Assembly (NCBI GenBank): GCA_021229015.1
Contig: CM037784.1
Span: forward strand, 66,243,223-66,307,222
Origin: Solen grandis
Lineage: Eukaryota > Mollusca > Bivalvia > Adapedonta > Solenidae
Direction of reading: 5' to 3'
DNA length: 64,000 nucleotides
Positions 9,056-54,500 of this stretch are shown in pieces. The position numbers and the translations under genes are program-made. A model generated the notes under the pieces. The model was not told the origin of the DNA and made no database searches. It was given only the letters and a program-made list of their open reading frames with translations. Every line of letters begins with the position of its first letter. Position 1 is the first letter of the stretch.

Positions 9056-9155
9056 NNNNNNNNNNNNNNNNNNNNNNNNNNNNNNNNNNNNNNNNNNNNN
9101 NNNNNNNNNNNNNNNNNNNNNNNNNNNNNNNNNNNNNNNNNNNNNNNNNNNNNNN
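9056..9155. other. Assembly gap of 100 N
   Basis: Exactly 100 N, the usual placeholder for a scaffold gap of unknown size. Sequence character changes after it: long homopolymers become frequent. Confidence 0.99.
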
Positions 9156-33095: not shown

Positions 33096-33409
33096 GGATG
33101 CTGGAATTAAACACCTTAGGATGTTCTTTTTTCATATTTTTTCTTCACTTACCTACCCCTTTCTTTCCTTTTCCCCATGGGGTTTGGGGGTATAAACAGT
33201 CCCCCACCTTTAGGTACCCAAAAGGGTTTTCTTTCTATCTCTAATACGGGAACTCCCCTATCTTTATATACTCCATATACCATGTCTGTTATACCGCAAT
33301 TTTGAAAATTGACATAAAACCTGGGAGCGAATGGCATTTTTTTTTTTTTAATTGTTACACGACAAATTTTTTTTCAAAACCAACACTTGGTAAATTATAT
33401 ATCTTTAAC

Positions 33410-33509
33410 NNNNNNNNNNNNNNNNNNNNNNNNNNNNNNNNNNNNNNNNNNNNNNNNNNNNNNNNNNNNNNNNNNNNNNNNNNNNNNNNNNNNNNNNNNN
33501 NNNNNNNNN
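33410..33509. other. Assembly gap of 100 N
   Basis: A second 100-N placeholder. The KLHDC4-like gene loses its 3' exons at this gap, and the LINE fragment that follows is cut by it. Confidence 0.99.
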
Positions 33510-34020
33510 ACACGATTTAACAGTAGTATACATCGATCTGAATATATTCAAAAACTTGCCAACAATTCCAATATTGAACAATTTAAACCAAAGGGCATTT
33601 CTATACACAGAATCAAATGCCTTTTTAAGGTCAACGAAAGCACATGGTAATCTTTTATTATTATTAATGAAGTGTATGACTATATTATGTAAGACAATCA
33701 CTGCATCAACGGTGCTACATTTTTTTCTAAATCCAAATTGAGCATCTGATAATATATTATTGTTTTCATCCCATTTAGTAACTCTATTATTCAACACTCT
33801 TACAAATATTTTCCCAAAATTACTCATTAATGTTATTCCACGATAATTATTTGTATCATTTTTGTCCCCCTTTTTATGAAAGGCCTTTTTTTCATCCCAA
33901 TATATCCATGACTCAATAAAATAATCATTTAATAAATCATCACTTGGGCAAGAACTCTTATTTCGTTTTAATTGCCTAATGGCATTTTCAACTTCATTAA
34001 TACATATTGGCTTATTTAAC
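33510..34020 (-). pseudogene. LINE reverse transcriptase, N-terminal half of RT domain
   Basis: On the minus strand an open frame reads from an upstream segment (NEVENAIRQLKRNKS) through NNYRGITLMSNFGKIF and AQFGFRKKCSTVDAV to CAFVDLKKAFDSVYR, reverse-transcriptase blocks 1-3 (A), typical of non-LTR retrotransposons of the jockey/CR1/RTE type. The frame is cut by the N gap before the catalytic FADD box. The FADD-containing part of a very similar element lies separately at 51713-53150. Flanking sequence upstream is degraded. Confidence 0.88.
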
Positions 34021-34554: not shown

Positions 34555-34664
34555 TATATTCTGAAAGACAGGATTGCATTCATCTTGAAGAAGTAGATCT
34601 TTTATCACAGTATAGTTTAAGAATAATGGTTCCGGCCTTATCTGTATATATTAGCTATGTAATG

Positions 34665-35345
34665 GTTAGTTTATAGTTGCCTTTAACTACACGAAAACGT
34701 CACGAGAGCGGAGCATGGCATTTTCCTTCCATTAGCAACAAAAGTGTGAGCTATGTGGTTGCATGCGGTAGTCAGCACTTATTGATTTTTACAAAAGTGT
34801 TAAACTTTGCGTTATAGGTCACGGTGACTATGTATAGATTAGTTCATAGTTGCCTTTAACTACACGATATAGTCACGAGGGCGGAGCTAAGCTATTTAAC
34901 AAATGACATTTTCCTTCCACTAGCGACAAAACTTCACAAAAGTGTAAGTCATGTGGTTGCATAGTGCACACTTATTGATTAGACTACGCGTTATAGTCCA
35001 CGGTGACTATGAACAAATACTATCATTTGATTTGACGAGAGGAAAATGCCAGGTGCCAAATTTGCCACTGCTATGTAGCCACGTGTAACAGAGTGAGTGG
35101 TGAATGTAAGGTTAGTTCACAGTTGCTTTTAACTACACGATATAGTCACGAGGGCGGAGCATGGCATTTCCCTTCCACTAGCGACAAATTTTCACAAAAG
35201 TGTGAGTTATATGCTTGCAAAGTCCACACTTATTTATTTTTACAAAAATATTGGACTATGCGGGATATAGTCCACGGTGATTATAAACAAATATCAGCAC
35301 CTGATTGGACGAGAGGAAAATGCCATGTGCTAACCAGAGACATAT
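34665..35345. repeat. Three tandem copies of a foldback (MITE-like) unit
   Basis: Units near 34665, 34840 and 35108 each contain GTTGCCTTTAACTACACGA, TAGTCACGAGGGCGGAGC, TGGCATTTTCCTTCCA and a later GTCCACGGTGACTAT; two also contain GAGAGGAAAATGCCA, the inverse of TGGCATTTTCCT. Paired inverse motifs within each unit suggest stem-loops. No coding sequence. Confidence 0.7.
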
Positions 35346-36891
35346 ACCCTTAGGATTTTAGTGTTGTTTTTTTGGGGGGGGGGATCCTAACTTCATTTTG
35401 CTCAGAATTATTAAATTATACCCAAAACTGCAAGTAGTACAGACAAAATGAACACTTTAATCGCTGGTCTATATATAAAATCTTCATAAATTGATTTGGG
35501 ATAAGTAAGAATGGGGTTGGGGTGGGGCGCTTATCCAGGATATAAATTTATTTCTGACCAGGATAGAACTAGATTTGAAATCATTATCTGCTAAAGCACA
35601 CCATCAAAGAAATGGTGGATTCCATTGAAAAATGAAAAGGTTTCATTTTAAAAACTAAATTCCCATTTTGTAGAAAACACTCATTAAAACTGGCAGTTTG
35701 AGTCCAAATAATACACACCACTTTGTAATCTCAACAGTACCCGAGCTGACAACAAGTAACCAGGCACTCAAGCAACACATGCACTCTCCAGTCTAAAGAA
35801 CATAGTCAGTTGAATATAAAAGACAATTCGCTATGGTGAGGCCACCATGCCATCAACCATGTCATTTGGTCAAATTGTGTAAATAATATTTATTCAAACA
35901 TGTCCAGATATTATGCAGAAACTTTTTTAAAAATGGTTTAAATAATCTATTATTAAGTAAACTCATGAAAATAGTACGTTAAAAAAGAAAATACTGCTCT
36001 AAAAATGCAATAAAAAACCATCGTTCTTTTATGTTAACTCTGCAAGAACAGTTATAAACAAATGAAAACTTGAAGCAGGATCTGTCTCGGCTTGAGGAGT
36101 AAAATAAAAATCTTAAAAAGCATATTTAATACACTCAGATACATACCCAGTCTTCGGTTTCCTACTTAGAATAAAAGAAAATAAAAGCAGATTTATCCCC
36201 ACCCCGGAAAAAAGCAAACATTGATCTGTGGTTTACAGATCAATACGGTTTAACACTGTATTAAAATGTGAAACTTCCGACATAGAAACTGCAGAAATTT
36301 TGTACAAAATGTATACGGTTACAGACAGTGAAAATGTCTTCTATACATTGTCATTTTTTGTCGTCAGACCTACCTACCTAAGATTAACGTGTCATGGGAT
36401 GGATCTAAGGTAAGCACATTATCCAATTTTGTCCATGGATTTCCCTAATGACGATTCCTGTTCATACACAACTCTTGCCTAATCACGGTGAAATGTAATG
36501 AAACTTATGGCAGTTTGAGGGTAACATTTGAATTGATAATGACCTGGTTGAAAAAAAAGTTTATTGAACTAGATAGGGTCCTTTACAACATGGAAACCCT
36601 TTTGGGGAAAATATGAAGTTTATACAAACTTGTCAGAGTTCAACGGTTTAATTGCTACTTCCTCATGTTATGTCCATGGTATTATGTAAGTCAGATACAT
36701 ATCAATATTGACAGTGATAGGAGTTTTACACGTGAAGTACAATAATATGCCAAGTTACTTCAAAGATTATCAATTTTGAGACTTACAAGTCTGTAAACAC
36801 AAACCACTGCTTGTAAAAGATTCAGAAAACATTATTCATGATGAACTGCACATCTTGCTGAGAATATGTAAGGGGTGTGCATTTGTCAAAT
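35346..36891. other. AT-rich left flank of the Polinton, nothing recognised
   Basis: No coding sequence, repeat family or terminal inverted repeat is visible. The shift from AT-rich to more GC-rich sequence occurs near 36880, where the first Polinton gene begins, so the element's left end is either truncated or lies unmarked in this stretch. Confidence 0.5.
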
Positions 36892-38205
36892 ATGGTTGAT
36901 GATTTTAAACCAGCAGAAAGCAAACGTGAAGTTCTTGGGGAAAAGCCCTATCATGTGCTGCAACTTGTTGAAAATAAAATCACGGTTGCTCACAACAACG
37001 TCTTCTTCGCTAAAATGCCAGATATCTGGACGAGCTATAGGCTGCCACAAGTCAAAAAAGAGGGTACAGCCTTAGCTTGGACGAGCACCCCAATGCAGTT
37101 ATGGCAGAATCAACTCAACTTTGCCGTATGGTGCGCAACGACCGGATGCGAAGTTTCGTTTAACGACCACCTGAACGGGGTGCATAATTACCCCCTCCTC
37201 CAGTCGGTCTACTTCTTTCATGTTTATTATACCACGAGGCGTGTTTTGGAAGAAATGAAAGTAGCCCTCCCCCAGGATCCTTTCTGGAACCCGGTTAACA
37301 ACACGTATGATAGGAGAGCTTTCGAATGAATTTGCCAGGAATTTAGGGTCTACCCCAAGACAGACTGGCGTCAGAAAGAGTTTTCTAACAGCGTCGGCCT
37401 TGGCGACGTCCACACTAGAGGGCATATGGCTTGGACTCAAAAGGACATCCGTAATGATGGTCCATCCAAGCACATGGTCAGGAGGAACGTCGGAAATTGG
37501 GACTTCGCGCACATGACATTTGGTCAGTAGGTCTCAGGTGGCCGCTATTGTAGAATTTCTAAATGTGACTGGGGACTCCCCAAGAAGGCCCACATTGAGT
37601 TCATAGGGCAAGATCCTGGTGTAGACGGCGCTTCGAGCACGTTCGTGATCGATAACTCGAAAGGCTTCACTCAAGCTGGCATGGAGCGAATTAACAACTC
37701 GATCCGCACCTATGTGTGAGCCCTGCTAGGGGATCAGGCGCAGACCAAGTCTAGTATCGGCCTCGAGGCGCAGAAGCAGTTCTTAACAAATGTGGAGGAC
37801 GCTATTAACTCCCCAGTGGACATACCCTCTTCGATAACGCGCTATGAAAACGTGCTGCAATACGCCGGTAGCGAACTCAACATGGTCTTCGGAACGGGTG
37901 TATACAGGGCCCCGAAAAACATGGTCCTAAACATTAATTCCGGCATCGTAGGGTACAACAATAATATCAAGATTGCTACGGCGAACCTAAACGTCGGAGA
38001 GGTGGATGTAAACCATCAGACGCTGCGCGTGCCTCAGACTGGTAGCTTCCAAGACGGAAAAATTGCAGGGCCGCCAACTTCAGAACCCCTAAAGCCGGCA
38101 CCCATCACTAAAGTGTCATCGAAGGCTCATGAAGAGGAAAAGAGATCGCTGGTCTTAGGAGGGGTCACCGTAGGGTTATTAGCCATCTGGCTAGCGCTTC
38201 GTTAG
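36892..38205 (+). pseudogene. Conserved Polinton virion-protein candidate, three in-frame stops
   Basis: One reading frame of 438 codons runs from the ATG at 36892 to TAG at 38203 with no frameshift, broken only by TGA at 37327, TAG at 37528 and TGA at 37717. The N-terminal third has the motif LNFAVWCATTGCEVSF and then VYFFHVYYTTRRVLEEM, which I recall from proteins beside Polinton capsid genes. The C-terminus is hydrophobic (LVLGGVTVGLLAIWLAL), suggesting a membrane or capsid-internal anchor. A minor capsid or other virion role is possible but not shown. It ends three bases before the stop of the opposing gene at 38209. Compared with other genes here its frame is unusually intact. Confidence 0.75.
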
Positions 38206-38208
38206 TAT

Positions 38209-38989
38209 CTAGTCGCGAGCCGCAACCAGGAGCAAACCTCTGACAGCTAAATATAGAGCCCAGGTATTTTCTGCGAGCCAACCGACCGCTTTACCAGCTG
38301 TTGACAACAGCCAGGAGACAATGCTGCTTATAATGCCGGGTAGAGCAGCCGCAGCCTTACCAGCCAGTTTCGCTAGTAAACTACCTAGGGTTTTAAGCTG
38401 CTTTTTTACCCATTCTCCCGCTCCCTTGGAAAGGGGCTTTGGTTGTGGTGCTGCTCCACCTCCTCCTCCAGTGACCTAATACTGTAATAATTGAAACCAG
38501 GGTAATACCCTATTCGCTGAATAGAGTCTTAATCCTCTCAGCAAGAGAGGTGTCCTCGTTCAGAATTCTACGAAAGGTTTCACGAATTCGGCTGATCTGT
38601 GACTTGATGGCCTCCCGATTGGTTGAAGCCGCCTCTAGACGCGCAGACCGCTCGAGCTCGAGATCTTGGAGTCTTCCACGAATTCTTCGCTTCATTTCAT
38701 CATCCTCGGTCTCCCCCAACTTCTTTTTTTCTTGAGCGATATGCTCGGAGAGCTTTGCCAGGTTGTTCACAAGCTCGCCGCGCTGGGTCTGCATTGCTTT
38801 ATCTAGGCCTTTAAGCTCACGGTAATCTAGGCCCCTAAGATCGGACTTAGGATCATGGATGGTCTTTAACAAAGTCTCCTCCACTTCAGATGTAATGGAG
38901 CCTACATTCAAAAGCCGTCTGTCCGAAAGCGACGCTTCCGCAAGCTCTCTATTCGCTTGTCTTATACTCGACACTGCCGTGGGGGGCAA
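38209..38989 (-). pseudogene. Coiled-coil protein with hydrophobic C-terminus, Polinton-conserved
   Basis: The ATG at 38989 starts a 159-codon frame rich in Glu, Arg, Lys and Leu (for example LSEHIAQEKKKLGETEDDE), a clear coiled coil, ending at TAG 38510. Beyond it, in another frame, a Gly-rich linker near 38460 leads into a cationic amphipathic and hydrophobic tail (KLAGKAAAALPGII, SWLLSTAGKA, LLLVAAR) that stops at 38209. I read this as one original protein of about 260 residues, now broken by one stop and a frameshift. I recall the same domain order in other Polintons, but no function is known to me. It is the only minus-strand gene among the structural genes. Confidence 0.75.
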
Positions 38990-39022
38990 ACTCTTCCGAC
39001 CCTATTCTGAAAAACCGAATTG

Positions 39023-39148
39023 ATTTCTTATCAAGTCCCTACCACCCCGGCAAAAGTGGATAATGCCAAGGGTTTTCCAGTACGACTATTAAACAATCAA
39101 TATCCGGGTAGCTTTTCAGGTGAAGATGCCCATTTTTATCTAACCTAA
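39023..39148 (+). pseudogene. Coding-looking stretch upstream of the capsid gene
   Basis: One frame reads a protein-like segment, including TTPAKVDNAKGFPVRLL and SGEDAHFYL, then stops. A neighbouring frame continues as SLPAAGSPKEF. It could be a separate small capsid-associated protein or the broken N-terminal part of the capsid gene; the sequence does not decide this. Confidence 0.45.
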
Positions 39149-40636
39149 ACTTAGTGGAGTCCCTTCCTGCGGCGGGTTCACCCAAAGAATTTTAGTAATT
39201 ATCGACTGCTTCAATAAACAGTTAAATGTAGGAGGTTCGAATGAAAAAGGTTTCGGCGATGTCATCATCAAATTCAAATTCCTGGTCCTCCTCAAAATCT
39301 TGGACCGGTATATCTTTATCCATTTTAGACTCTTTGTATATTACCGCATATCCTTCAATATATCGCAATACGGAAGAAAGCTCAATCCGCACAGGCGCCT
39401 TAAGGAGCCCCTGGGTGTTAAAGGCATCCGTCAAACGGTTGTCATCACCAACAACCCATCAACTATCGACCAAAATCAGCAGCTCTTAGTGAGGTTTCCA
39501 AACTTAGGAGCCAACGATGTCATCGTGCCCGGAACAGCCCGTCTGGCCTTTCAAATTGCGCTGGACTCGACCGACGTTAACCGAACCGTGGTCAACAACA
39601 TTGGCCGGGCGATAGTCAAGAAAAGCACGATTAAGATTTCAGGAAACGAGGTCATGAGCATTGACTACAGCGACATCTACGGTTACTATTTCGACCTCTG
39701 GAAAACGGAAGAAGAACGAAATAATGCCCAATACCAGTTGATTGATACCTCGGGAGACAGGAATGTCACACGTATAAGGCTTGATGCCGGAAATAAGAAC
39801 GAGGGCGTTGACAAGGACGCTGCAATTGCCTATGGTAGCCGATTTTATATCCCTCTCGACTTTGAGCTACTGGAGAGCCACATGCCGTTCTTTCAATCCG
39901 CTTTCGGTGATAGGCTAGAATTCGAACTCACCTTTAATGACCATAACCGGGTTATCAAGGCGACCACTAACGCCAGTTTCACTGTGAAAGATATCACTCT
40001 TGAGTTCGAGATGGTCACTAACCCACAGCTGGCTGCAAATATCCGTAACCAGTACGCAGAAAGGGTGAGCATCTTCTTCGACAGAGTACTTAGGCACAGA
40101 AAAATCGTAAAAAATAAATCCGACGCACTATGGAACATAAACCTTAACTTGCCTGCCATGTCGATGAAAGGAATCTTACTGCTCTTCGAAGAACCCACGG
40201 CAGCCTTTGCTAGACATAGCGAGGCCTTCTATAACCCTAAGATTACCAAGGTGGAGGTCACTTTTGAAGGCGTTCCTAACCAGCTCTTCGCCCAAGGTAT
40301 AAGTCCATACCAGATGTGGGGCGAGGTCCGTAAATTAAGGCAGGAGGAACTAAACGTCAGCCGGAGGTTGCCATGGTTGCTAAGGATTTAGGGCTCCACG
40401 CGTGTGATCTCGGAAAGTACCTCACCAAAGAGTACGCCCTATGGCTTAACCCCTGGACAAACGATGACCACGGCCTGCACGGAAACGGGAGGAGAGTGGA
40501 AAACGCCAGTGAAGGCATTACCATCCAATTATCGAAGGAGGTGGAAGCGGATGGAGCATTGAACGTTTACGTATTTGTAGTGATGGACGCCCAGCTCAAC
40601 ATAGAAAATGGCAGGTTTGTCTCGGCTGTGTACTGA
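39144..40636 (+). pseudogene. Major capsid protein, double jelly-roll type
   Basis: A long frame (open from 39144, no ATG at its start, to 40391) and a second frame (to 40636) together cover the Polinton major capsid protein. Recognised family motifs are STIDQNQQLLVRFPNLG, FYIPLDFELLESHMPFFQ, LEFELTFNDHNRVI, and at the end LNVYVFVVMDAQLNIENGRF. The protein builds the hexon-like trimers of an icosahedral shell. The frame changes near 40355-40364, so the C-terminal 90 residues are in another frame. The N-terminus is unresolved: an ATG at 39241 lies in a different frame, and more coding-like sequence precedes it. A minus-strand frame at 39222-39434 is antisense to conserved capsid sequence and is rejected. 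The packaging ATPase follows almost directly. Confidence 0.85.
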
Positions 40637-40640
40637 GGCC

Positions 40641-41223
40641 CACTCAGTAATAATATGTGGGATGACGGGCTGTGGAAAAACAAAATTCGCTTTAGACCTC
40701 CTAGAGGGCCCGTACCGGCGCACTTTTCGACCACATTGTGCTACTCTGCCCCACCGTTAAGTACAACGAGACGTATAAAAGTCGACGGTGGGTTTGGTCT
40801 GACGATGAAGTCTATGTTGTAGACCCCGGTGAAAGGCTTCATGAGTATTTACGAGCCCTTTATCAATTATTTCAAGGCCAGCCGACTTTATACATTATTG
40901 ACGACATGGCCACCAGCAAGCAGCTTACCAATAAAAAAGACATACCCTCTGAATTGGCCTTTTCCGGACGACATGCCAAGCAATCTGTATGGGTACTTTC
41001 TCAGCGGTATAATGCTGTACTCAAAGAGCCACGAGAGCAAATCCGCTGGGTAGTTATTTTTCACAAAGACAGGGATAGCTTTGACGAGTGCTTACGAGAA
41101 AACATCATACCTCCGGCTGAGCGCAATACTGTGCGCGAACGACTTGCCAAAACTAAGCATACTAAGCTTTTGTTAAATACTTCTCAGCCAAGTAGGTACC
41201 ATTTAGTTGACGGCGGTACATGA
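40641..41223 (+). pseudogene. FtsK/HerA-type genome-packaging ATPase
   Basis: The Walker A motif GMTGCGKT is encoded at 40659-40682 and the Walker B motif LYIIDDM about 75 residues later, near 40890-40910; an arginine-rich C-terminal part follows. This fits the A32-like ATPases that pump DNA into capsids of Polintons, virophages and large DNA viruses. The Walker A part is in one frame and the rest in another, with the break at the TTTT run near 40724-40727. No ATG is visible before the Walker A box. The usual size is about 200-250 residues, so little is lost apart from the frame. Confidence 0.88.
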
Positions 41224-41332
41224 GCCGGCGGTGCCGTGTTAGCGGCTTTACTATGTTTCCTAATTTTATCTTCTGGCAGTGTTTTTGACACTTCGTTTCG
41301 CAATTTGAGTTGAGAAGTACGTGACTATAGCC

Positions 41333-41893
41333 ATGGAATGCGACGAGTTACTCGATGAGCTTCTTGCCGATCAAGCGACGCCCAATGAAATGCAGGGTGA
41401 CACTACGCCCGCTAGTCTTAAGAGTCTTAAGAGTCAAAGATTGTCGACCCTCGCCATGGGAGGTCAGTCAAAAAAGTACATGGGAAAAGAATTTTCCGTG
41501 GATCAGACTGAACAGCTTCCAGACGAAGAGACTGACAAACTCTACTCTCGATATGAAGCCCGGCTAGGAGCGAGTAGGACCAAGACACTCGGCTCCGCAG
41601 CACTCCAGATATACACAATGGTGGTAAGCCACTTTCTACCTATCCCACGACAAGATTTACTTATTGCTGACTTGGAGTCTGACCCTTTCCGCGACCACAT
41701 GCTAAACACCACTACCTGCGAACTATACCATCACTTTGGCTCGTACTTAGCTCCTGTCACAATAATGCATGCACTTTTAAACATTGCCAAGCACCTAGTA
41801 AACATTGCAAAGCAACTACTTAACATTGCCAAGCACCTATTAAACATTGCCAAGCACCTACTGAACATTGCCAAGCACCTAGTAAGCAATTAG
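41333..41893 (+). CDS. Conserved Polinton protein with C-terminal heptad repeats
   Basis: An intact frame of 186 residues starts at ATG 41333. The acidic N-terminus (MECDELLDELLADQ) is followed by a conserved core (LYSRYEARLGA, KTLGSAALQIYTMV, LESDPFRDHML, CELYHHFGSYLAP) that I recall from other Polintons without a known function. The C-terminus then has five copies of a seven-residue unit, LNIAKHL and variants, encoded by 21-bp tandem repeats at 41777-41881. Such heptads with Leu and Ile at fixed spacing favour an amphipathic helix or coiled coil. It is the only mid-sized gene of the element with no break. Confidence 0.75.
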   Translation: MECDELLDELLADQATPNEMQGDTTPASLKSLKSQRLSTLAMGGQSKKYMGKEFSVDQTEQLPDEETDKLYSRYEARLGASRTKTLGSAALQIYTMVVSHFLPIPRQDLLIADLESDPFRDHMLNTTTCELYHHFGSYLAPVTIMHALLNIAKHLVNIAKQLLNIAKHLLNIAKHLLNIAKHLVSN

Positions 41894-41908
41894 TTACACT
41901 AAGTGAAG

Positions 41909-42269
41909 ATGACAACAGACAAGGAGCCGGAGAGGGTGACAAATCCGCCGCCCAAGAAGGACCCTAGGCGTGTTGCGGCTGGCAAGGCTGCGGCTGAGGC
42001 TAGAAAAGAAGCAGCAAGCTTTCAAATACGAGTTGCAGCGTTTAAAGGCGGCCGAGGCCCGGAAGATGGACACTCAGGAAGAACCGCCCACTCAGGAGGA
42101 ACCGCCCACTCGGGAGGAACCGCCAAAACCCTCTGAAAATACAAATAGCGTTTGCCAGATAGGCGTAGCAGCTGGTGTAGTAGCCGCTGCAATATTTTGG
42201 AAAACCCAACCTGTCGCCGAATTAAACAAGCCCATCTATTATAAACCTGATCCTCATTATATGGAATAA
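41909..42269 (+). pseudogene. Small basic/coiled protein with one membrane segment
   Basis: The ATG at 41909 starts a Lys/Pro-rich N-terminus with KKDPRRVAAGKAAAE, a motif I associate with small Polinton proteins. The frame shifts near 42005, after which a charged coil (YELQRLKAAEARKMD), three QEEPPT-like repeats and a hydrophobic stretch (VCQIGVAAGVVAAAIFW) follow to the TAA at 42267. Three 15-base repeats encode the Glu-Glu-Pro-Pro part. A DNA-condensing or membrane role is possible; no function is established. Confidence 0.65.
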
Positions 42270-42500
42270 GAGTGTGCGGACGGAAAGGAAATAGTAAACG
42301 CTATCTATCACGGTGCCGTGGTAGGTGGACTTTCAATTGGATACGCCAGATTAGGTAAGGCTGCATTTTGAGGTAATTTTCCCAAGCTAGACTTCACTCC
42401 TCGTGACGTTGAAATGACCGTAGTCGACGTAACAGCCGCACTGGCAACCAAAGATCTTCTAGTGAAGCAAGGAATAATACCTGATAACACATTAAAGTAG
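42270..42500 (+). pseudogene. Small conserved Polinton protein, one in-frame TGA
   Basis: The frame directly continues that of the preceding gene after its TAA and reads ECADGKEIVNAIYHGAVVGG and later DFTPRDVEMTVVDV, ATKDLLVKQGIIP, ending at TAG 42498. TGA at 42369 interrupts it. The Gly-rich first half looks membrane-active. I recall this short protein from other Polintons; its function is unknown. Confidence 0.65.
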
Positions 42501-42534
42501 AGCTGATTCTTTAGACGAAGATGGCTGTATTGCA

Positions 42535-42961
42535 ATGATGCTGGGTGGAGCTATCGCTAACGCGGTGGCGTTCACTGGTAGTAACTTCTTATTCAGCAGT
42601 CTTAAGGACTCCAAAGTTGAATAGAGGCGTCGCCACGACCTCGCAGTAGAACAATTAAAGGCGGCACAAGCTGAGTGGGCTGAAAGGCGAACTTAACGAA
42701 TTGATTTCATCCAAGACGAGGCGACAAGGCCACGCCGTCCAAACCTTTAATGATGTAGATGTGGCTATTCGAGAGTATTCTTTAGTCACGAATAAGCAGT
42801 TAGATCCAGTTGACCCCGAGCCACAGCTGCCTAACTTTTATACGCCATCTTCAGAACAACAAGGTAAAGAAATTGGATTTATAGTATTAGCTCTGGGAGC
42901 TGCCGGTCTTGTCGGCTATTGGGTCGAAAAAGAGATAAAAACAACAATTTTTTCTATATAA
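42535..42961 (+). pseudogene. Small membrane/coiled Polinton protein, broken
   Basis: The frame begins MMLGGAIANAVAFTGSNFLF, a likely membrane segment, hits TAG at 42622, continues in the same frame through AVEQLKAAQAEWAERR, then shifts frame near 42690 to read GHAVQTFNDVDVAIREY, EPQLPNFYTPSS and a second hydrophobic segment (FIVLALGAAGLVGYW) up to 42961. The domain order (membrane, coil, membrane) suggests a capsid-internal or membrane protein. The start may instead be the ATG at 42521 in a third frame. Confidence 0.65.
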
Positions 42962-42963
42962 TC

Positions 42964-43200
42964 ATGGGTATCCCCGAAGAATTATACCTTGCAATGCTTG
43001 AGGTCGGGTACAGCGCCCGCCGCCATAAAATCCCAGGTTCCCGCTTAGTTGTCGACGTCGCACAAAAATCTCTCGATCTCTGACGGCGGGATGAACGGGC
43101 AGTTCTAGTATTTGCTCGCCTTGTGCTGAGCAGGGAGAAAGACAGGCAGTTTCCGGGACCAGTCTATGAAGCCTATTTGAGATTGACAGGTCTGTTGGAA
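42964..43200 (+). pseudogene. Small Polinton protein of unknown function, one in-frame TGA
   Basis: The ATG at 42964 starts MGIPEELYLAMLEVGYSARR; TGA at 43081 interrupts and the same frame continues DERAVLVFARLVLSREKDRQ up to about 43200. The sequence looks like a short folded domain, but I do not recognise it with confidence. It immediately precedes the integrase. Confidence 0.5.
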
Positions 43201-43213
43201 TATATCGTGGGTC

Positions 43214-44199
43214 ATGGCTTCCCTTGCGAGCATTTACTACAGCCCTCGCGGCTGTTGGAAGGGGCTGGCGGCAATTCAAAAACTGGCGGCCGCGGCTAGC
43301 ATTTTTGAGACCAAAGCCCGGGACTTCCTGAAAAAACAGGCCATCTGGCAAATCTACTTCCTGTTCCGCGCCATATACCGAGGCCCAAGTTTGACGTTTC
43401 AGTACCGTACGAAGTTCACCAGGCCGATCTCTTATTTTTACCACATGACACGGTTCGTGGGAAGAGATACAAGTATGCCCTGACTGTTGTCGATGTGGCA
43501 AGTAGGTTCAAAGCTGCCGAACCGCTTACTACTAAGGAGGCTAAAGAGGTCGCCGATGCCTTCGAACGGATCTACAAGCGGGGTCCTCTGAACTGGCCAA
43601 AACTATTTCAAGTCGACCCTGGGCGCGAGTTCATGGGTGCCGTCAGCCAGCTTCTGTCGAAGCATGACGTCGAAGTTAGGCGCGGCCGTGTGGACATTCA
43701 TCGTGATCAGGGTATCGTTGAACGTTTTAACCGCACCCTGGCTGAACGCCTGTTCGGGCACCAGTACACCGTCGAGATGCGACTGCCAGAGGGCAAGCGG
43801 TCAGCAGAGTGGGTTGGTAGGCTGCAAGGCGTTGTTTCGGCATTGAATGAAGAAGTAACACTCCATACCGGTAAACGGCCACAGGAAGCCATCAAAGCTA
43901 AAACGGTGCAGAAAAAAACCCTCCTCAGTTGTTCCAGGTCGTGTGGTTGGTCTTAAGGAGCAAAAGCTTCCTTCCGGGTTGGGTTTTCGATATCTTTACC
44001 AGCCTGGTGAGCTCGAGGGTGGCCGACGCCGAGCCAATGACCCCGTGTGGTCTCTGGATGTTTACTAGATAGAACGTTCTGTGACGAGCCCGTGCTGTAC
44101 TACTAACAGGATGGACCTGGGCGAGGCTTTGTGCGTTAGGAACTCCTGGTGGTGCCCTCAGACACCCAATTGCCCCCAGATGGTGTTCTCAAGCGTTGA
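43214..44199 (+). pseudogene. Retroviral-type DDE integrase (rve) of the Polinton
   Basis: The N-terminal part (YYSPRGCWKGLAAIQKLAAA, KKQAIWQIY) is in one frame; after a shift near 43360 the catalytic core follows: HQADLLFLPHD (first Asp), LFQVDPGREFMG (second Asp) and QGIVERFNRTLAERLF (Glu). A second break lies in the seven-A run at 43912-43918. The C-terminal domain continues with VGLKEQKLPSG, PGELEGGRRRANDPVWSLDVY, then TAG 44066 and further broken coding sequence to TGA 44197. The enzyme would insert the element and duplicate 6 bases of target. Its last 11 bases overlap the end of the polymerase gene on the other strand. Confidence 0.92.
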
Positions 44200-47100
44200 G
44201 GAGCTCATCTTTGTAAGCGTCCACTGCAGACGTCGCCTCTTTATGTCCAAAGGCCAGAGTTTCCACCACATTTTCAGCAATCCAGCGCTTGGAGTCAAAT
44301 GGGGATAATGAAATCTTATTAAGATTCTGCCCGTAGATTTGGTGCTTCTCCGATCGCAGGACGTCCATGCCGTGGTGAAATGTCTTTTTTCCGAAGAGGG
44401 CGTCTTTGTACTGTTCGTGTCGGATTTGCTTTTTTACGCCTTTGGCCTTCTTGATACTTTTTCCATTGTTTTCTAGTATGGAGTACATCTTAGGGCGCAG
44501 ACCGACATATTCAGCTATAGGCCGCCCCGCACATTCGTCTTTCATTTTACCTAGCACTTTCTTATTCACAGTGCTGTGTAGTGGGTTGTTCTCTGGAAAG
44601 TCGGACGTGTCATAAAGATCCGCATTATCGGCCATGTCCTTGTAGACATCCTCTGTCTGGATTTCTAACAATAGACTGTCAGTATCGGTGTAAAGCAGTT
44701 GACAGCGTTCGCTATACTTACTCTTCATCTCGTTGTAGTAGAACTCATACATAAGGTTCTTACTGAGGTCAAAAACGCTCATTCCCACATATACTGGGCG
44801 GTATAGCACTACTCGGTTTTTGTGGACCTGAATTTCTACAAGGTCGTCGTTGAATATGTTTGCTCGAGCAAAGGATGGGCTGGCAATGAGCCGTCGGAGC
44901 TTGTCCTCCTCGTTTGCCCTTCTCGTTTGACACTGACCCTCTTGCGCAGGTTTTCCATAGTTTTAGCAAAGACGCTGTTGTTCATTAGTTTGTACAGGTC
45001 CTTCTCAAAGTCGCTGTTGGCCTTCTTCCTGAGCTCGGTGTTCATCCTTATGTAGGGCGCTATCCAAGGTTTCTGCTCAAATCTGAGGGCACGGTGATCT
45101 TTTTAAGGCGAAGGCCTAGAGACAGGTAAAGCTGTATATTCCGGTAGTGTAGCACATAGCGGTCCTTGTTGCGGAGGTTCGGAACCAGTATCTCAACCTA
45201 TGTAGCGCCACCCCTAACGCTGATGAGGCTGTGCTGGTAAACGGACATCCACTGTTTTTGGACTACCATGCGCCCTGGTGCCAGAGGATATGCGTTGTGT
45301 GCATTGTGCAGCTCTTATATATAGCCCACAGGATGGTCGGCAGGGTGATCTGCAATGGCCAGTTATTCGCAATTTCCACCCAGCGGAAGCCGCTTGTTGG
45401 CAGAGGCTGGGACATGGCCCAACCATAGAGATTGTTCGCGTCGAGGTACAGTATGTGGCTATTTGGCTTTTCTGGGTTGTATCCTTTCACTCTTTGGTTG
45501 TTGGCTTTGGCGTAGCGCTTGGACACCATGGAGATACCTCTTCGCATTCCCTTCTCGATGTACAGGTGTTGGTCGTAGTCTGTGAGCAATTCAAGCTCTA
45601 CGCCCGTCTTTTTGAGTAGGGCGTCCCATGAAAGTCCGGGACTTGTATAGTAGTGTGCGGGGTCTAAGCCATACTGCCTTAGGCAGGTCTTCCGGAATGT
45701 TTCAAAGACATCTGCCAGTAGGAGGACATCTGTGCGGTTGTAGAGGTCGTGGTAGTCCCCGAGGGTTTTACACCTAAATGCCGTCCAGACTTTCTGAGCG
45801 TGGGCATAGTCCTCATCACAGATGTGCTCATTGGAGAGCTTGCTGTAGAATGCCTCCTTTGGTGGGAGCCTTGTCTCATGCGAAGCGCTCCCAGGAGTCC
45901 ATGTACTCGTATGGGTACACACCTTTGCGCATCAGGAGCTCGTGTTCGGGCTCATAGCGGGAAGTAACTAGGAAAGCCTCTGGCTTGTTGGCGGCTACCA
46001 GCCTGTCGAGCGATGTCAGCAGGGACTGGGCTCTGTCGATGAAGCGAAGCTGGCCAAGGCTGAATGAGATGTATTTCTCTGTGTTGTTGGGGATGCAGCT
46101 TACCTTGCCCTCGACCTTTGAGATGGCCTGCATAAGCAGGTGGGAGTCGTAACTTCGCAGGTTGTGGAAGACCACTGGTATAGTGGTTGTCTTTGAGTTA
46201 AGTCGCAGCTTTAGGCTACAGGCATTATGGGCTGCTCCTCTGTATTGCCCAGTGATATGACAGTGGTCACGGACTGAGTTTCCCTCAAGTGGCTTTCCAC
46301 ATACATGGCAGATAGTTGCAGCATTGTAGGCTTGCCAGTCCTCCCGTGTCATCCTCATTGGGTAAGACAACACTTGCTTGATTTTGCGCTCCCCAACCTG
46401 AATGGCCTTTAGGAAATGTTCTGCCGCATTGGGAACCCGGAATTCAGCTGGCGGCTCTGTATGGCCATCATTCCGCACCACGATGTAGCAGTAACTGGAA
46501 GCCTCGTGTTTTTGCGTTTTTTGAATGTTGGCTCTTTGTGGGGTCGAGCTCTGGGCTCTCATCCTTGATGATGAGCGCCTCAAAGTCAGCGTAGATGATA
46601 TAATGAGCCGGGAGCTGCTTGTGATGGTTCTGGAATGTCACAAGATTTTTACCCTCTTCAGGCATCTCCACTTTGACGGCTGTTAGACCGATTCCCTGGC
46701 ACTCTGGCTTGTGGGCCTCTAGCAGATCCTCTCTGGATTAACCGTGCAGGCAGCGCTCGCAGAAGTGTTTACGTCTTCTGGTCTTGTTCTGGTCATGTAG
46801 GAGGCGGCTGAGATTTTTCACCCAGGTGTGGGTGGAACTTACCAGCCTTCTCTATTAGGAGGAGGTTTATTCTTGGTATCTCCTCTGGCTGCTTGCTGAG
46901 GTGGAGTACAGTGACTCCCTTGTCCCAGCCAAAGATGTTGATAGAAAAGTTGTTCTGCCGCTCGACCTTTGGGATTTGAGAGATTGGTGTAGGAGCATCA
47001 ATCCCTGTGAAATCTAGGCCGTCGTGTGAGGGGTATTTTGTAGGTCTGTCCACATGATCCCCAGCTGGAAACAGGGCAGAACGCAGCGCCCAACGGAGGC

Positions 47101-47897
47101 AGTGGTTATCCTTGTTTTTCACATTTACAACAGCCTTCTTGTTTTGTACCTTTGCTGGTAGTGGGATATACGACCCTCCTCTCAATGGCTGATATCTGGC
47201 AATGTCTAGCCAAAGGGTCTTTACCTGATCTACAACCCAGCCAGACCCTCTTTGGGTCCACTTCTCGAGCGTTTCTTGGATCCTTGGGAAAGCTCGGTTG
47301 AGGGCTTCTTCTATTTCACCCTCCTGCAGAATAGACTCTTGCTTATGACGCAGCACGGGTTCAGTGTACTCTTCACTACCGTCTGGTTTTGTCCTTCCGA
47401 AGCCTGACCTTTAGAGCAAGCTGAAATTTAACGCCATTCAGAGCCCTAATCTCGTTTACTAACTTGTTAGGGATAATGGGTTCCATTTCCTCAAGGAAAG
47501 CCCTAGGGTCTGCACCCTGTCCTTGAGGCGCATCCATCTGCCAGCTTCTCAAGAAACTACTAAGGACCCACGGGGTCTGTCTAAAGATTAGTTTGTCTTC
47601 CTGCTTCATAGGTGCGAACAAACCCAGGAGCTCATCCTGATACTCTTGTGCAGATCTCAACGATTTTTGATGGGGAATAGGGTCGAAGTATTTTTCCAAG
47701 GTCTTCCTCTTGGTAGCTTTCTTTGTGCGTGGAGGTCGGTATTTTCTGGGGTATAATGGTTTTAGTAGGCGCTCCTTGACAGCCTCAGGAATGGGCTCAT
47801 CCAAGATGTTTTTCACCACATCATGGAGAGTCGAATCTCGCATTTCTGCAAGTATCTTTTCGATATACTCTTCGAGTTATTTATTCGCAGTAGCCAT
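44189..47897 (-). pseudogene. Protein-primed family B DNA polymerase of the Polinton
   Basis: About 3.7 kb on the minus strand covers a polymerase of roughly 1,230 residues, the usual Polinton size. From the N-terminus: NNFSINIFGWDKG domain, a Cys/His finger (CERCLHG), exonuclease motif I YADFEA (46590-46579), a second finger CHVCGKPL...HNAC (46310-46218), exo II FHNLRSYDSHL (46169-46137), exo III YNRTD (45742-45728), motif A YLDANNLYGWAM (45448-45413), motif B KLMNNSVFAKTMEN (44991-44950) and motif C YTDTDS (44692-44675). Breaks: TAA seven codons after the ATG at 47897, frameshifts near 47375, 46820, 46530, 45900, 45350, 45088 and 44930, TAA near 46738 and TAG near 45201. Motif B has Ala where I recall Gly in relatives. 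The coding density of the fragments shows recent decay. Confidence 0.95.
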
Positions 47898-47904
47898 GTC
47901 GATG

Positions 47905-48037
47905 CATATACCATGTGCAGAATAATTCGGTAACTGAAAATTTTTCTGATATACCATGTGCAGAATAAATCTCTAACTGAAAATTTTCTGATATACCATG
48001 TGCAAAATACATCTTACTGAAAATTTTTATATATAGA
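47905..48037. promoter_or_regulatory. Three 43-bp direct repeats and TATA tract upstream of polB
   Basis: ATACCATGTGCAGAATAA...TAACTGAAAATTTT recurs three times with spacing of 43 and 42 bases (CCATGTG at 47911, 47954 and 47996). TATATATA at about 48029-48037 lies 135 bases upstream of the polymerase ATG on the minus strand. The position suits a promoter with repeated factor sites; a replication or packaging role is also possible. Confidence 0.5.
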
Positions 48038-48045
48038 CGGGCTTA

Positions 48046-48270
48046 CTAGAGGCCAATAAAGGGCATCCGCTGAATCCTTACACAGTCCTCGAGCTCGCGT
48101 AGGAATAGAGAGAATAACTTCTTCCTCTGGGCCTCTGCTCGGAGGAGGACGTACCTCGCACGGCTCGCGCCGCACTTAACCCCACACCGATAGGTTTCCG
48201 ATTTTGTACGCCACCCACAAGTACGGCAGGGGTGTGGCTCAGAATCGGGCTTACGGCGTAGTTGTGCCAT
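48046..48270 (-). CDS. Small Cys-rich protein, zinc-ribbon-like
   Basis: The ATG at 48270 (upstream starts reach 48360) gives a 74-residue frame with HPCRTCGWRTKSETYRCGVKC, a CxxC...CxxxC pattern suited to zinc binding, then a basic helix-rich tail. It is upstream of the polymerase on the same strand and just outside the repeat/TATA tract. It has no break. I do not recognise the family; small zinc-finger proteins are known in this position in some Polintons, but that is recall only. Confidence 0.45.
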   Translation of the reverse strand: MAQLRRKPDSEPHPCRTCGWRTKSETYRCGVKCGASRARYVLLRAEAQRKKLFSLFLRELEDCVRIQRMPFIGL

Positions 48271-48360
48271 GTGTACGCAACATAGCTGCCCTATACACCG
48301 CCGCCCGCATTGATCGACGCACCCAACTACCAGCCACTCGCAGCGTCTATGTCCGATCAT

Positions 48361-48719
48361 TTTGTTTTTTTATACTATGCGTAAACAAATATCTAATATA
48401 AAAAAATATGCTACCCCTTTTTTGGCCCGATCCGATTTTTGTTGGTCGAAATTTGCGCCGGCGGCGCTAAGACATCAGTTAGAGACATGCTCCAGTTAGG
48501 CACGCCTAAAAAAACGCAACTTTCGGCGGAATCCGTTCGGCACATTGCTTCTGGCGAGATCGGGGTACATGCAGCAAAAACTAAATACAAAATAGGAGTA
48601 AAAAGGGTTAGGTAGGTCCCGCAAAAAATGCGCTATCGCCCCGGGTACACACAGGCTGGGGGCTCGCCGATGGGGGTGGGGCGGGCCCTGGGTAGCCGAC
48701 ATTTGCGGTAGCTCCGGCA
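48361..48719. other. GC-rich right margin of the Polinton, no gene recognised
   Basis: Still GC-rich compared with the flanks, with a GCGCCGGCGGCGC palindrome near 48451. I see neither a gene nor an inverted repeat matching the left side. It ends where the LTR begins. Confidence 0.45.
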
Positions 48720-48887: not shown

Positions 48888-48933
48888 TGGTGTCAGAAGT
48901 TTATTGGAACTAGGTTTATAATAGAAAATAAAC

Positions 48934-49498
48934 ATAGCCAAGAATCTTCGTCCACCAGAGAGGTTATCCTTGGATGGTAATTTAAAGGAGAACTTCAGGA
49001 GATTCAAACAGCAGTTTGAGCTGTATATGACAGCAACTGGACTGAATGAAAAGGGAAATGAGGTGAAGTCATCAACACTAATAAGTGTTATAGGACCAGA
49101 AGCGCTTGAGATATTTAACATATTTAACTGGAATGAACCAGGTGATGCGGAGGGAGATAACATAAAAGGGGACAAAATTTTGAATAAGTTTCAAAATTAC
49201 TGCACTCCTCGTAAAAATGTGGCATTCGAGAGGCAAAAATTCAATATACGTGCACAAAAGGAGTTTTGATACTTTCGTGACTGATCTGAAAATTCTATCA
49301 AACTCATGTGAGTTTGAGGGGCTGAGAGATTCTTCAATTCGGGACAAAATCGTATGCGGCGTAAAAAGTGAAACAGTAAGACATCGTCTTTTGAAAGAAC
49401 CTGATTTGACCCTGCAGAAAGCAATGGATATTTGCAATATAGACTTTGGCCGTTTGGGGACATTCGTCATTGTTAGTGACACCTCTTGCTTTACTTGA
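48934..49498 (+). pseudogene. Ty3/gypsy gag fragment
   Basis: Two overlapping frames (to 49269 and from about 49255) give a gag capsid region: NFRRFKQQFELYMTATGL, GPEALEIFNIF, KILNKFQNYCTPRKN, then after a frameshift SFDTFVTDLKILSNSCEF and SIRDKIVCGVKSETVRHRLL, LQKAMDIC. This is the usual retroviral-like gag of metazoan gypsy elements, which would assemble the particle. It ends abruptly near 49450-49498 before any nucleocapsid zinc knuckle or pol, so the element is truncated. Confidence 0.88.
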
Positions 49499-50022
49499 TT
49501 ATTACAAATCTTATTGCCAATTACAAAATATTAGTACAGATTACATTGATGTTACAATTGTTGACAAAAGGGTTAAGTCACAAGTTCACAAACTTAGATT
49601 CGACTCTCTTGCTTTTCGTTTTTCTTTTGGGCATCAATTCATAAAGTATGGATGATCTGAATATTCGTCTACTATTTTGAGACGCGAATGTTTAACATGC
49701 AATTTTGTAAAAAAAATATAATTATATAATCGTATATGGATAAGTCGCTCGTCTTTTCTTGAAATTGTCTATGATAATAAATTTGACGGATGTCATTATG
49801 TTTACCGATATTTAAAATCTAAATCAACGTTTTAGGTTTTATCTGCGGAGTGTGATATTGTACTTACACAAAATCAAGTATACACGAACGGCTTAAAGCT
49901 GAGGATATTTGACAAAATGGCATGTATCAATGGAAATATTTAGACCAACTGTAAGTAAATAATCTACATGTATGCGTGTTATTAAATTATTTTGAAATGG
50001 CTTTACTTTATGTAAGTCGTGC
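49499..50022. other. Non-coding, nothing recognised
   Basis: AT-rich sequence after the truncated gag. No frame or repeat that I can support. Confidence 0.4.
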
Positions 50023-51536: not shown

Positions 51537-54500
51537 GGTAAGTAGGTTTTCAGTATATAATATATATATTCCTGATGGTACGAGTTAGTAGGAAGCCTTT
51601 GCTTGATAGTGCGAATTAATAAGTAGCCTATCAGTATATTAATATCCTTGGTAGTACGAGTTGATAAGTAGCCTATTAGTTTATTTATATCCTCGAAAGC
51701 ACGTGTTAATAAGAACAGAACAGAACAGAACAAATTTAGACTTTTATTTAGACTTAAGCATAACAGCTCATCGTCATACATATAAATAAATACATATTAT
51801 ATATTTGGCATGCACATATATTTCACATACATATATGTTTTAGAAATACATTTATAATAAGAATAGTGAACCATTTAAATCTAACACTATGGATTCACTT
51901 ATGAAGTGAGAATGCTATATAAGATATATTCAATTCATACATCATGGATAAAAACTATCAAACATCTTTAAGAACACATGTAATTGTATATCTAAAGCGT
52001 TCAGAGCATTCGTTCTTATATTGAAAGCCTTTTTACGAAACAGTGCTAATTTATTTAATATATTTTTGTTTTCGGTTTTTAACAGTTTGATATATTTGTA
52101 CACATTGGGATTTTGTGTATAAAACTTTGGAACATTTTTTTTTTAAATCTAAATATTAAATTTTCTTAAATTCCTTTATTTTTGGGACTCCATTTCAATA
52201 TTCAAGCTATGTGAAGATAATCTCATTTTTGCCAAAGCATTACGTAACGCAGGATTATCCATAATTCTCAAATAAGGTGACATTAAAAAAGATGTTTTCT
52301 TTATAAAGATACAGTGAGGAACAATTATTCATATCTACTCTCCATTTAGTAACGTATATATTAGTCTATCTCTTAATATTGGAATAAAAATTGAAACATC
52401 TACTTTTTCTGGGTATAACCATACATTTAATCCTGACTGTTGTAAGATATTTCTGATATATTCAAACTACAGTTTTGTGATTTTACAGTAACTGATTTAA
52501 CCAATATTTAATGATGCGAACGTGTCGATTAATGTACAGAGGAAATTCAGAATATAGCGATACTGTATTTGTGGATCTCTTAACATTAAGAATCCATTTG
52601 CAAAATTTACTGTGTACTATCTCAATATTTTCAGCATGTTGATACCCCCATACCCCCCAGTTATATTCAAGTATAGATAATACAAGATAATCAAACAAGT
52701 TAAACATTATATCAACAGGTATATTCTTTCCCCGCGTAATATTCATTAAAGAGTTTACAGCACCAAGTGCCTTTCCTCTTAGGGTACTTTTTGCGTGCGT
52801 AAACAATCCCCCACTTGACATCACAATACCTAAATAATTAAACTTATCAACAACTTCAATATTACTATATTATATTATAATATTTAAGATACCACCTTTT
52901 CTGAAAACTACAATTTTGGTCTTTTCTATTTTTACAGTTAACTTCCATTCTAAGCAATATTTTTTTTCTAATGAATTCAACGATAATTGTAAATCTCCTT
53001 CAGTTTCCGAAATAATAACTGCATCATCCGCAAACAAAAGAAGGTAAATAGACATTTGATCTATTGAGACACCACTTTCCAAATTCTTGTGTAAATTATT
53101 CTCAATGTCATTCAGGAATAATGAGAATAATATCGGGTAGGTGATTTCACCTTAAAATAAGCCTACCTTACTGTCAGTAATAATAAGTAGCCTATCAGTA
53201 TATTTATATCTTTGGTAGTACGAGTTAATATGTTGCCTATCAGTATATTTATATCTTTGGTAGTACGAGTTAATATGTTGCCTATCAGTATATTTATATC
53301 CTTTGGTAGTACGAGTTAATATGTTGCCTATCAGTATATTTATATCCTTTGGTAGTACGAGTTAATATGTTGCCTATCAGTATATTTATATCCTTTGGTA
53401 GTACGAGTTAATATGTTGCCTATCAGTATATTTATATGTTTGGTAGTACGAGTTAATATGTTGCCTATCAGTATATTTATATGTTTGGTAGTACGAGTTA
53501 ATATGTTGCCTATCAGTTTATCTATATCTTTGGTAGTACGAGTTAATATGTAACCTATCAGTATATTTATATCTTTGGTAGTACGAGTTAATATGTTGCC
53601 TATCAGTATATTTATATCTTTGGTAGTACGAGTTAATATGTTGCCTATCAGTATATTTATATCTTTTGTAGTACGAGTTAATATGTTGCCTATCAGTATA
53701 TTTATATCTTTGGTAGTACGAGTTAATATGTTGCCTATCAGTATATTTATATCTTTTGTAGTACGAGTTAATATGTTGCCTATCAGTATATTTATATCTT
53801 TGGTAGTACGAGTTAATATGTTGCCTATCAGTATATTTATATCTTTTGTAGTACGAGTTAATATGTTGCCTATCAGTATATTTATATGTTTGGTAGTACG
53901 AGTTAATATGTTGCCTATCAGTAATATCTTTTGTAGTACGAGTTAATATGTTGCCTATCAGTATATTTATATCTTTGGTAGTACGAGTTAATATGTTGCC
54001 TATCAGTAATTTATATCTTTTGTAGTACGAGTTAATATGTTGCCTATCAGTATATTTATATGTTTGGTAGTACGAGTTAATATGTTGCCTATCAGTATAT
54101 TTATATCTTTTGTAGTACGAGTTAATATGTTGCCTATCAGTATATTTATATGTTTGGTAGTACGAGTTAATATGTTGCCTATCAGTATATTTATATCTTT
54201 GGTAGTACGAGTTAATATGTTGCCTATCAGTATATTTATATCTTTGGTAGTACGAGTTAATATGTTGCCTATCAGTATATTTATATCTTTTGTAGTACGA
54301 GTTAATATGTTGCCTATCAGTATATTTATATGTTTGGTAGTACGAGTTAATATGTTGCCTATCAGTATATTTATATGTTTGGTAGTACGAGTTAATATGT
54401 TGCCTATCAGTATATTTATATCTTTGATCAGTATATTTAAATCCTTGATAGTTCTAGTTAATGAGTAGACTATCAATATATTTATATCCTTGATAGTTCT

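Follow-up and report, generated by a model that had tools for sequence, protein, structure and literature searches.

Introduction

Polintons, also called Mavericks, connect transposons, virophages, adenoviruses, and giant viruses. In animals they share a protein-primed DNA polymerase B (pPolB), a retrovirus-like (rve) integrase, a packaging ATPase, a double jelly-roll major capsid protein (MCP), and a penton-like protein, with the integrase and the MCP on one strand, the arrangement expected for Mavericks (PMC9683012). A study of bivalve transposons reports Mavericks in all of the mollusc genomes that it analyzed (PMC10294476). In the NCBI taxonomy, Adintoviridae is now redirected to Eupolintoviridae. 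Our impression is that the Polintons of invertebrates have been described less than their counterparts in vertebrates and protists. Here we describe an element in a 64,000-nucleotide stretch (the window) of the bivalve Solen grandis (assembly GCA_021229015.1, contig CM037784.1, positions 66,243,223 to 66,307,222 of the forward strand) that is very probably the remains of a DNA virus of the Polinton/Maverick group (class Polintoviricetes), integrated and now dead. Positions below are those of the window.

The element has the five genes named above, with the integrase and the MCP on one strand, as animal Polintons do; it differs from them in that inverted repeats and an Ulp1-family protease were not found and in that all five large genes are broken. 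Its recognizable part measures 11.5 kb, compared with 13.3-14.6 kb in three Drosophila-associated adintoviruses, for the first of which protease homologues are reported (PMC8363768). The Maverick fossils of placental mammals (human chromosomes 7 and 8) resemble it in having stops and frame shifts throughout and neither inverted repeats nor protease matches; those fossils are, however, at least ~102 million years old and highly degraded (PMC9683012), whereas here the MCP frame stays open over 326 codons. The element is an ordinary example of the known Polintons and alone alters no accepted view. It is a sign of a lineage with numerous MCP relatives in public data, and a Cys-rich gene beside its polymerase, kept in a second record, may deserve naming and could be searched for.

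Gene content and organization

The element (36892-48363) is densely filled with open frames and has 42-50% GC in 2-kb blocks, while blocks outside it have 28-37%, apart from one at the right edge with 41%. GC shifts sharply at both edges; the left edge lies near the start of the penton-like gene, and the right edge is placed only roughly, as high GC continues to ~48.8 kb, the beginning of a presumably gag-like ORF and a primer-binding-like site. From left to right, the genes are penton-like (+), a coiled-coil/hydrophobic gene (-), MCP (+), ATPase (+), four small genes (+), integrase (+), a long DNA polymerase B (-), and a small Cys-rich gene (-), so that integrase and MCP are both on the + strand and pPolB is opposed. 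Four of the six group-defining Polinton genes are firmly identified, and the fifth, the penton, is assigned by conserved family and position. Because this gene set is accompanied by the expected orientation and by clear damage, the identification as a decayed Polinton/Maverick, already made in a preliminary description from the sequence alone, is well supported. The capsid, ATPase, D-D-E integrase, and polymerase B named there were likewise confirmed, by homologues, Pfam and PHROG matches, motifs, and colinearity with a second contig (L001, below).

For the MCP open reading frame (ORF; 39144-40391, +), 1823 of 4825 candidates proved homologous at E<=1e-3, with a best identity of 78% among the 120 of the 1823 that were listed; statements on organisms below refer to these 120. 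One relative (P0004) matches at 76.8% over 39363-40337 and at 77% over 40334-40633 in another frame. The open frame is not a product of chance, since 326 codons contain 0 stops, compared with a mean of 16.7 and a minimum of 6 in shuffled sequences (n=300). Capsid_N was found in 25 of the 25 members of an MCP alignment (A2) at E<=0.1, and in the window piece it scored 21.3 bits, under the cut-off of 24. The predicted model of P0004 (mean predicted local distance difference test score, pLDDT, only 51.7) had the MCP of mavirus, a helper-dependent virus of a protist, as its best solved-structure match by E-value (Foldseek; 6g43, E 3e-10, 13% identity, template modeling (TM) scores ~0.2), and its fold matches also spanned Sputnik, PBCV-1, and adenovirus hexon.

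When 121 MCPs were placed on a tree, the window protein joined an 11-member clade (support 0.996), closer to the ten other members than to the named relatives among those listed. The latter are two proteins of Elysia marginata (P0073 and P0103) and two of metagenome-assembled genomes (MAGs) of Candidatus Thiodiazotropha (P0052 and P0061), symbionts of lucinid clams; they are 66-70% identical to the window MCP, and in P0103 the MCP and ATPase are fused. Together with the mollusc-wide occurrence of Mavericks, these relatives plausibly fit a mollusc host without proving one. A literature search covering few subscription journals found nothing joining Maverick or Polinton with Elysia. No MCP relatives were found in IMG/VR viral contigs (single MCP and MCP alignment), in bacterial and archaeal genome contigs (alignment), or in phage records. 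A short acidic reading frame (39222-39330, -) lies opposite the start of the MCP gene.

Adjoining the MCP, the ATPase matches Pox_A32 (E 2.3e-6, 27.7 bits, over the cut-off of 22.8) and is 55-63% identical to the MCP-ATPase proteins P0037 and P0103 across two frames, with the Walker A motif (GMTGCGKT, at 40659) in a frame differing from that of the rest.

The penton-like gene had been left unnamed in that description, although the start given there for the element, 36892, is the first ATG of this gene. Its N-terminal piece (36862-37329, 155 residues) has 73 homologous proteins among 79 candidates (best identity 58%), and the block WQNQLNFA is invariant in an alignment of 26 sequences (the window piece and 25 of the 73 relatives). 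The gene has 3 internal stops in 437 codons, compared with a mean of 21.6 and a minimum of 10 in shuffles (n=300). The name "penton" is our assumption, taken from Polinton gene sets and based on position, since the model of a relative (P0123) gave no fold match. The penton-like alignment had no relative in IMG/VR viral contigs.

The integrase matches rve (E 3.4e-9 on 43309-43953), and its D-D-E residues are present with 40 and 34 residues between them (the retroviral D-D-E spacing is 35). The part before 43309 is presumably integrase as well, as judged from position: its two pieces have coding-bias scores (z) of 3.1 and 1.1, the second is not the best of six frames, and a stop lies at 43081-43083. 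NCBIfam matches to IS481, IS3, IS30, and IS21 transposases were below cut-offs and were read as the shared rve fold. The integrase had no relative in IMG/VR viral contigs. Its search of bacterial and archaeal genome contigs retrieved L001 (JANQFH010000027.1, 5112 bases, GC 0.493; best segment 74%), whose integrase matches the window at 60.6% across 43357-44196, a span interrupted by 5 stops.

L001 contains an integrase end, an opposed polymerase over three long ORFs, the middle one matching DNA_pol_B_2 (E 2.2e-15), and a small Cys-rich ORF, in an order identical to that of the window. It differs from the window in being only 5.1 kb long and in having pPolB spread over three ORFs, and we do not assume it to be intact. 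L001 is assigned to an Oligoflexia MAG. A bacterial genome would be a strange place for a Polinton, so we take the contig to be eukaryotic or viral DNA, and the assignment is likely a binning error.

Nine colinear tblastn pieces join the window polymerase to that of L001 at 41-68% identity (41-45% for the N-terminal pieces), with seven frame switches between the pieces and 7 stops inside them. The window polymerase also matches PHROG DNA polymerase (3.5e-5) and PHROG endonuclease VII (2.1e-6) and, weakly, DNA_pol_B_2 (E 0.015 and 0.029). It contains YADFEA, YLDANNLYGW, and YTDTDS, which we read as polymerase motifs. The predicted parts are a terminal-protein, a vOTU-like, a Cys/His (endonuclease VII-like), an exonuclease, and a palm domain, named after PMC11071308. 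A vOTU-like domain is described for Polinton polymerases (PMC11071308), and Cys and His contexts that we liken to it by eye are kept in both the window and L001; the terminal-protein and vOTU parts had no Pfam family in the window pieces or L001. Inserted homing endonuclease domains, which Polinton polymerases also carry (PMC11071308), may account for the endonuclease VII match, which recurs in L001 slightly under the Pfam cut-off.

Two IMG/VR contigs (L002 and L003) retrieved with the polymerase alignment matched only 37 and 41 residues of the endonuclease VII-like stretch. Because phages match the same stretch, they were set aside as presumably not Polintons, a judgment made from the match. 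Two single polymerase pieces had no relative in IMG/VR viral contigs, and one piece had no match in phage records. More broadly, the viral-contig and the bacterial and archaeal contig collections yielded no named reference Polinton, a sequence search of solved structures gave no meaningful match, and Rfam gave none at gathering scores.

Decay and inferred ancestry

All five large genes are broken: in-frame stops interrupt the penton-like gene (3) and the integrase (5), and frame switches interrupt the MCP (one), the ATPase (one), and pPolB (seven). Of the 102 MCP sites that are at least 97% conserved in the other sequences, 3 are changed in the window protein (rank 20 of 121), a rate ~3x the median of ~1%, and its tip is the second longest of 121 in the tree (0.246). 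The lineage likely evolved for long under constraint before this copy died rather recently; judged by the departures at conserved MCP sites, the decay looks recent relative to the age of the lineage.

The window itself shows the gene set, the frames, and the damage; for the life cycle of the ancestor, we infer from its family how the parts would have worked. The polymerase would have copied a linear genome, using the terminal-protein domain at its own N-terminus as primer, and the vOTU-like protease domain would have released the terminal-protein domain from the polymerase. MCP and penton may have formed an icosahedral shell filled by the ATPase, and the rve integrase would have inserted the viral DNA into a host chromosome. 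The present copy no longer functions, because stops or frame switches interrupt each of its five large genes.

That the element was once complete, as the preliminary description held, was not established, because neither terminal repeats nor an Ulp1-type protease turned up. The protease gene may lie in a lost part. Alternatively, the element could represent a compact (~12 kb) animal Polinton lineage in which the Ulp1-type protease is truly lost, the vOTU-like domain of pPolB is the sole protease, and the zinc-ribbon-like Cys-rich gene at the polymerase end is a mark of the lineage, perhaps encoding a late transcription or terminus-binding factor; we consider this unlikely.

Alternative explanations

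Several results weigh against a Polinton origin. Terminal inverted repeats were not found between 34.0-39.5 kb and 46.0-52.5 kb, and no Ulp1-family protease was matched by Pfam in 20 main ORF pieces or 33 additional ones, a subset of the ORFs of the window. Of two protease motif patterns sought over 30.0-52.5 kb, one matched nowhere and the other just twice, both times right of the element. The window pPolB pieces alone stay under Pfam cut-offs, and the polymerase is placed with Polintons indirectly. The MCP model is of low confidence with low TM-scores, and the model of the penton-like relative, also of low confidence (pLDDT 45.3), had no fold match below E 1.

The breadth of the MCP fold matches, from mavirus and Sputnik to PBCV-1 and adenovirus hexon, could suggest a virophage, a polinton-like virus, or an adenovirus-like element instead, but pPolB and an rve integrase are present together. 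Mavirus-like virophages have both genes, an rve integrase included, yet live with giant viruses of protists. Polinton-like viruses mostly lack pPolB and the rve integrase, and adenovirids lack an integrase, according to PMC11071308; this whole group of explanations is extremely improbable. An equally slight chance attaches to contamination or a chimeric join that placed a virus contig in an animal scaffold. The sharp GC change at both edges and the presence of assembly gaps in the window (9056-9155 and 33410-33509) would fit such an event; neither gap lies at an edge, however, the genes are decayed as after long residence, and an ORF that we take to be gag-like adjoins the right edge.

The state of the MCP bears on two further explanations. 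An intact or nearly intact provirus, with breaks due to sequencing or assembly errors, would account for an MCP piece that is free of stops over 326 codons and little changed at conserved sites, and frame switches are what uncorrected long reads usually introduce by error. It would not account for stops without frame change, 3 in the penton-like gene and 5 in the integrase match, and terminal repeats were not found; we regard it as very unlikely. If the host had instead retained some genes, such as the MCP, for a function such as defense while the remainder decayed, the open N-terminal part and the change at only 3 of 102 conserved sites would be expected. However, the MCP does not keep its frame into the last 100 residues, and a break separates the Walker A part of the ATPase from the remainder. 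Both the tip length and a departure rate ~3x the median also speak against retention, which leaves this explanation scarcely credible. A dead Polinton/Maverick remains by far the most probable origin of the features in Table 1.

Table 1. Features of the Solen grandis element, with window positions and the observations behind each assignment
Feature	Position	Strand	Observations
Penton-like minor capsid protein gene	36892..38205	+	Single frame throughout, three in-frame stops
Opposed small gene	38212..39001	-	Coiled-coil part 38513-39001; hydrophobic part 38212-38475 in another frame
MCP gene	39354..40633	+	One frame switch near 40334; tblastn to P0004, Foldseek of P0004 model
A32/FtsK-type packaging ATPase	40608..41208	+	Frame differs between the Walker A and Walker B parts
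Small gene g1	41270..41797	+	7 homologues, tblastn, coding z 3.5
Small gene g2	41940..42269	+	Basic N-terminal part, hydrophobic segment; ORF, coding z 2.7, highest of the six frames
Small gene g3	42267..42500	+	Hydrophobic, one in-frame stop; coding z 2.4
Small gene g4	42514..42961	+	Two frames; coding z 2.6 and 2.1
rve integrase, broken	42964..44196	+	rve core, D-D-E, L001 match
pPolB	44189..47876	-	Broken across all three frames; L001 colinearity, PHROG, motifs
Tandem repeat, 43-bp, about three copies	47906..48033		Upstream of polymerase; Tandem Repeats Finder
Small Cys-rich (zinc-ribbon-like) gene	48091..48363	-	L001 homology; same place and strand as in L001

Small genes

The small genes had been proposed as possible marks of the lineage. 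Two of the six candidates have homology support: g1, with its seven relatives, and the Cys-rich gene, kept in L001. The other four (g2, g3, g4, and the coiled-coil gene) show coding bias alone. The coding score is a weak guide, as 3 of 6 controls (a gag-like ORF and two antisense ORFs) reach z 3.0 to 3.6; because controls score this high and the homology-supported Cys-rich gene scores low, these four genes are unproved by it.

The seven g1 homologues (of 172 candidates) are 48-60% identical, and their tblastn matches lie between 41270 and 41797, one containing 1 stop. A 21-bp tandem repeat (41778-41885) extends g1 with leucine-rich heptads; it is present in 0 of the 7 relatives and was therefore read as a local minisatellite. 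The Cys-rich gene matches L001 4702-4998 (-) at 38% over 91 amino acids (E 1e-16), and its tblastn score of 55.8 bits compares with a best of 25.0 in 200 shuffles; its coding z of 1.2 gives no support by itself. The zinc-ribbon Pfam match of the L001 ORF reached only E 0.66. Literature joining Polinton and zinc ribbon was not found in a search covering few subscription journals, which is no proof that the gene is undescribed.

The coiled-coil/hydrophobic gene has its own frame as the best of six in both pieces, with weak coding z (2.6 and 1.6). It had no Pfam match above cut-off, and its coiled-coil part had no relative in IMG/VR viral contigs. Pfam was the only homology test applied to g2, which had no family above cut-off, and to the g4 piece 42659-42958, which had 0 families. 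An ORF resembling a helix-turn-helix (48489-48612, +) was dropped for want of coding bias (z -0.4).

Flanking sequence

Beyond the right edge, ORFs at 48890-49500 (+) presumably belong to a gag-like long terminal repeat retroelement with a primer-binding-like site; Pfam gave no match. On the left, a reverse transcriptase fragment (33405-34019, -; RVT_1 E 4.2e-15) runs into the gap at 33410-33509, and direct repeats that are as much as 87% alike are clustered at 34655-35330. Farther to the right lies a 45-bp satellite array (53181-54426) of 27.8 copies with 96% matches.

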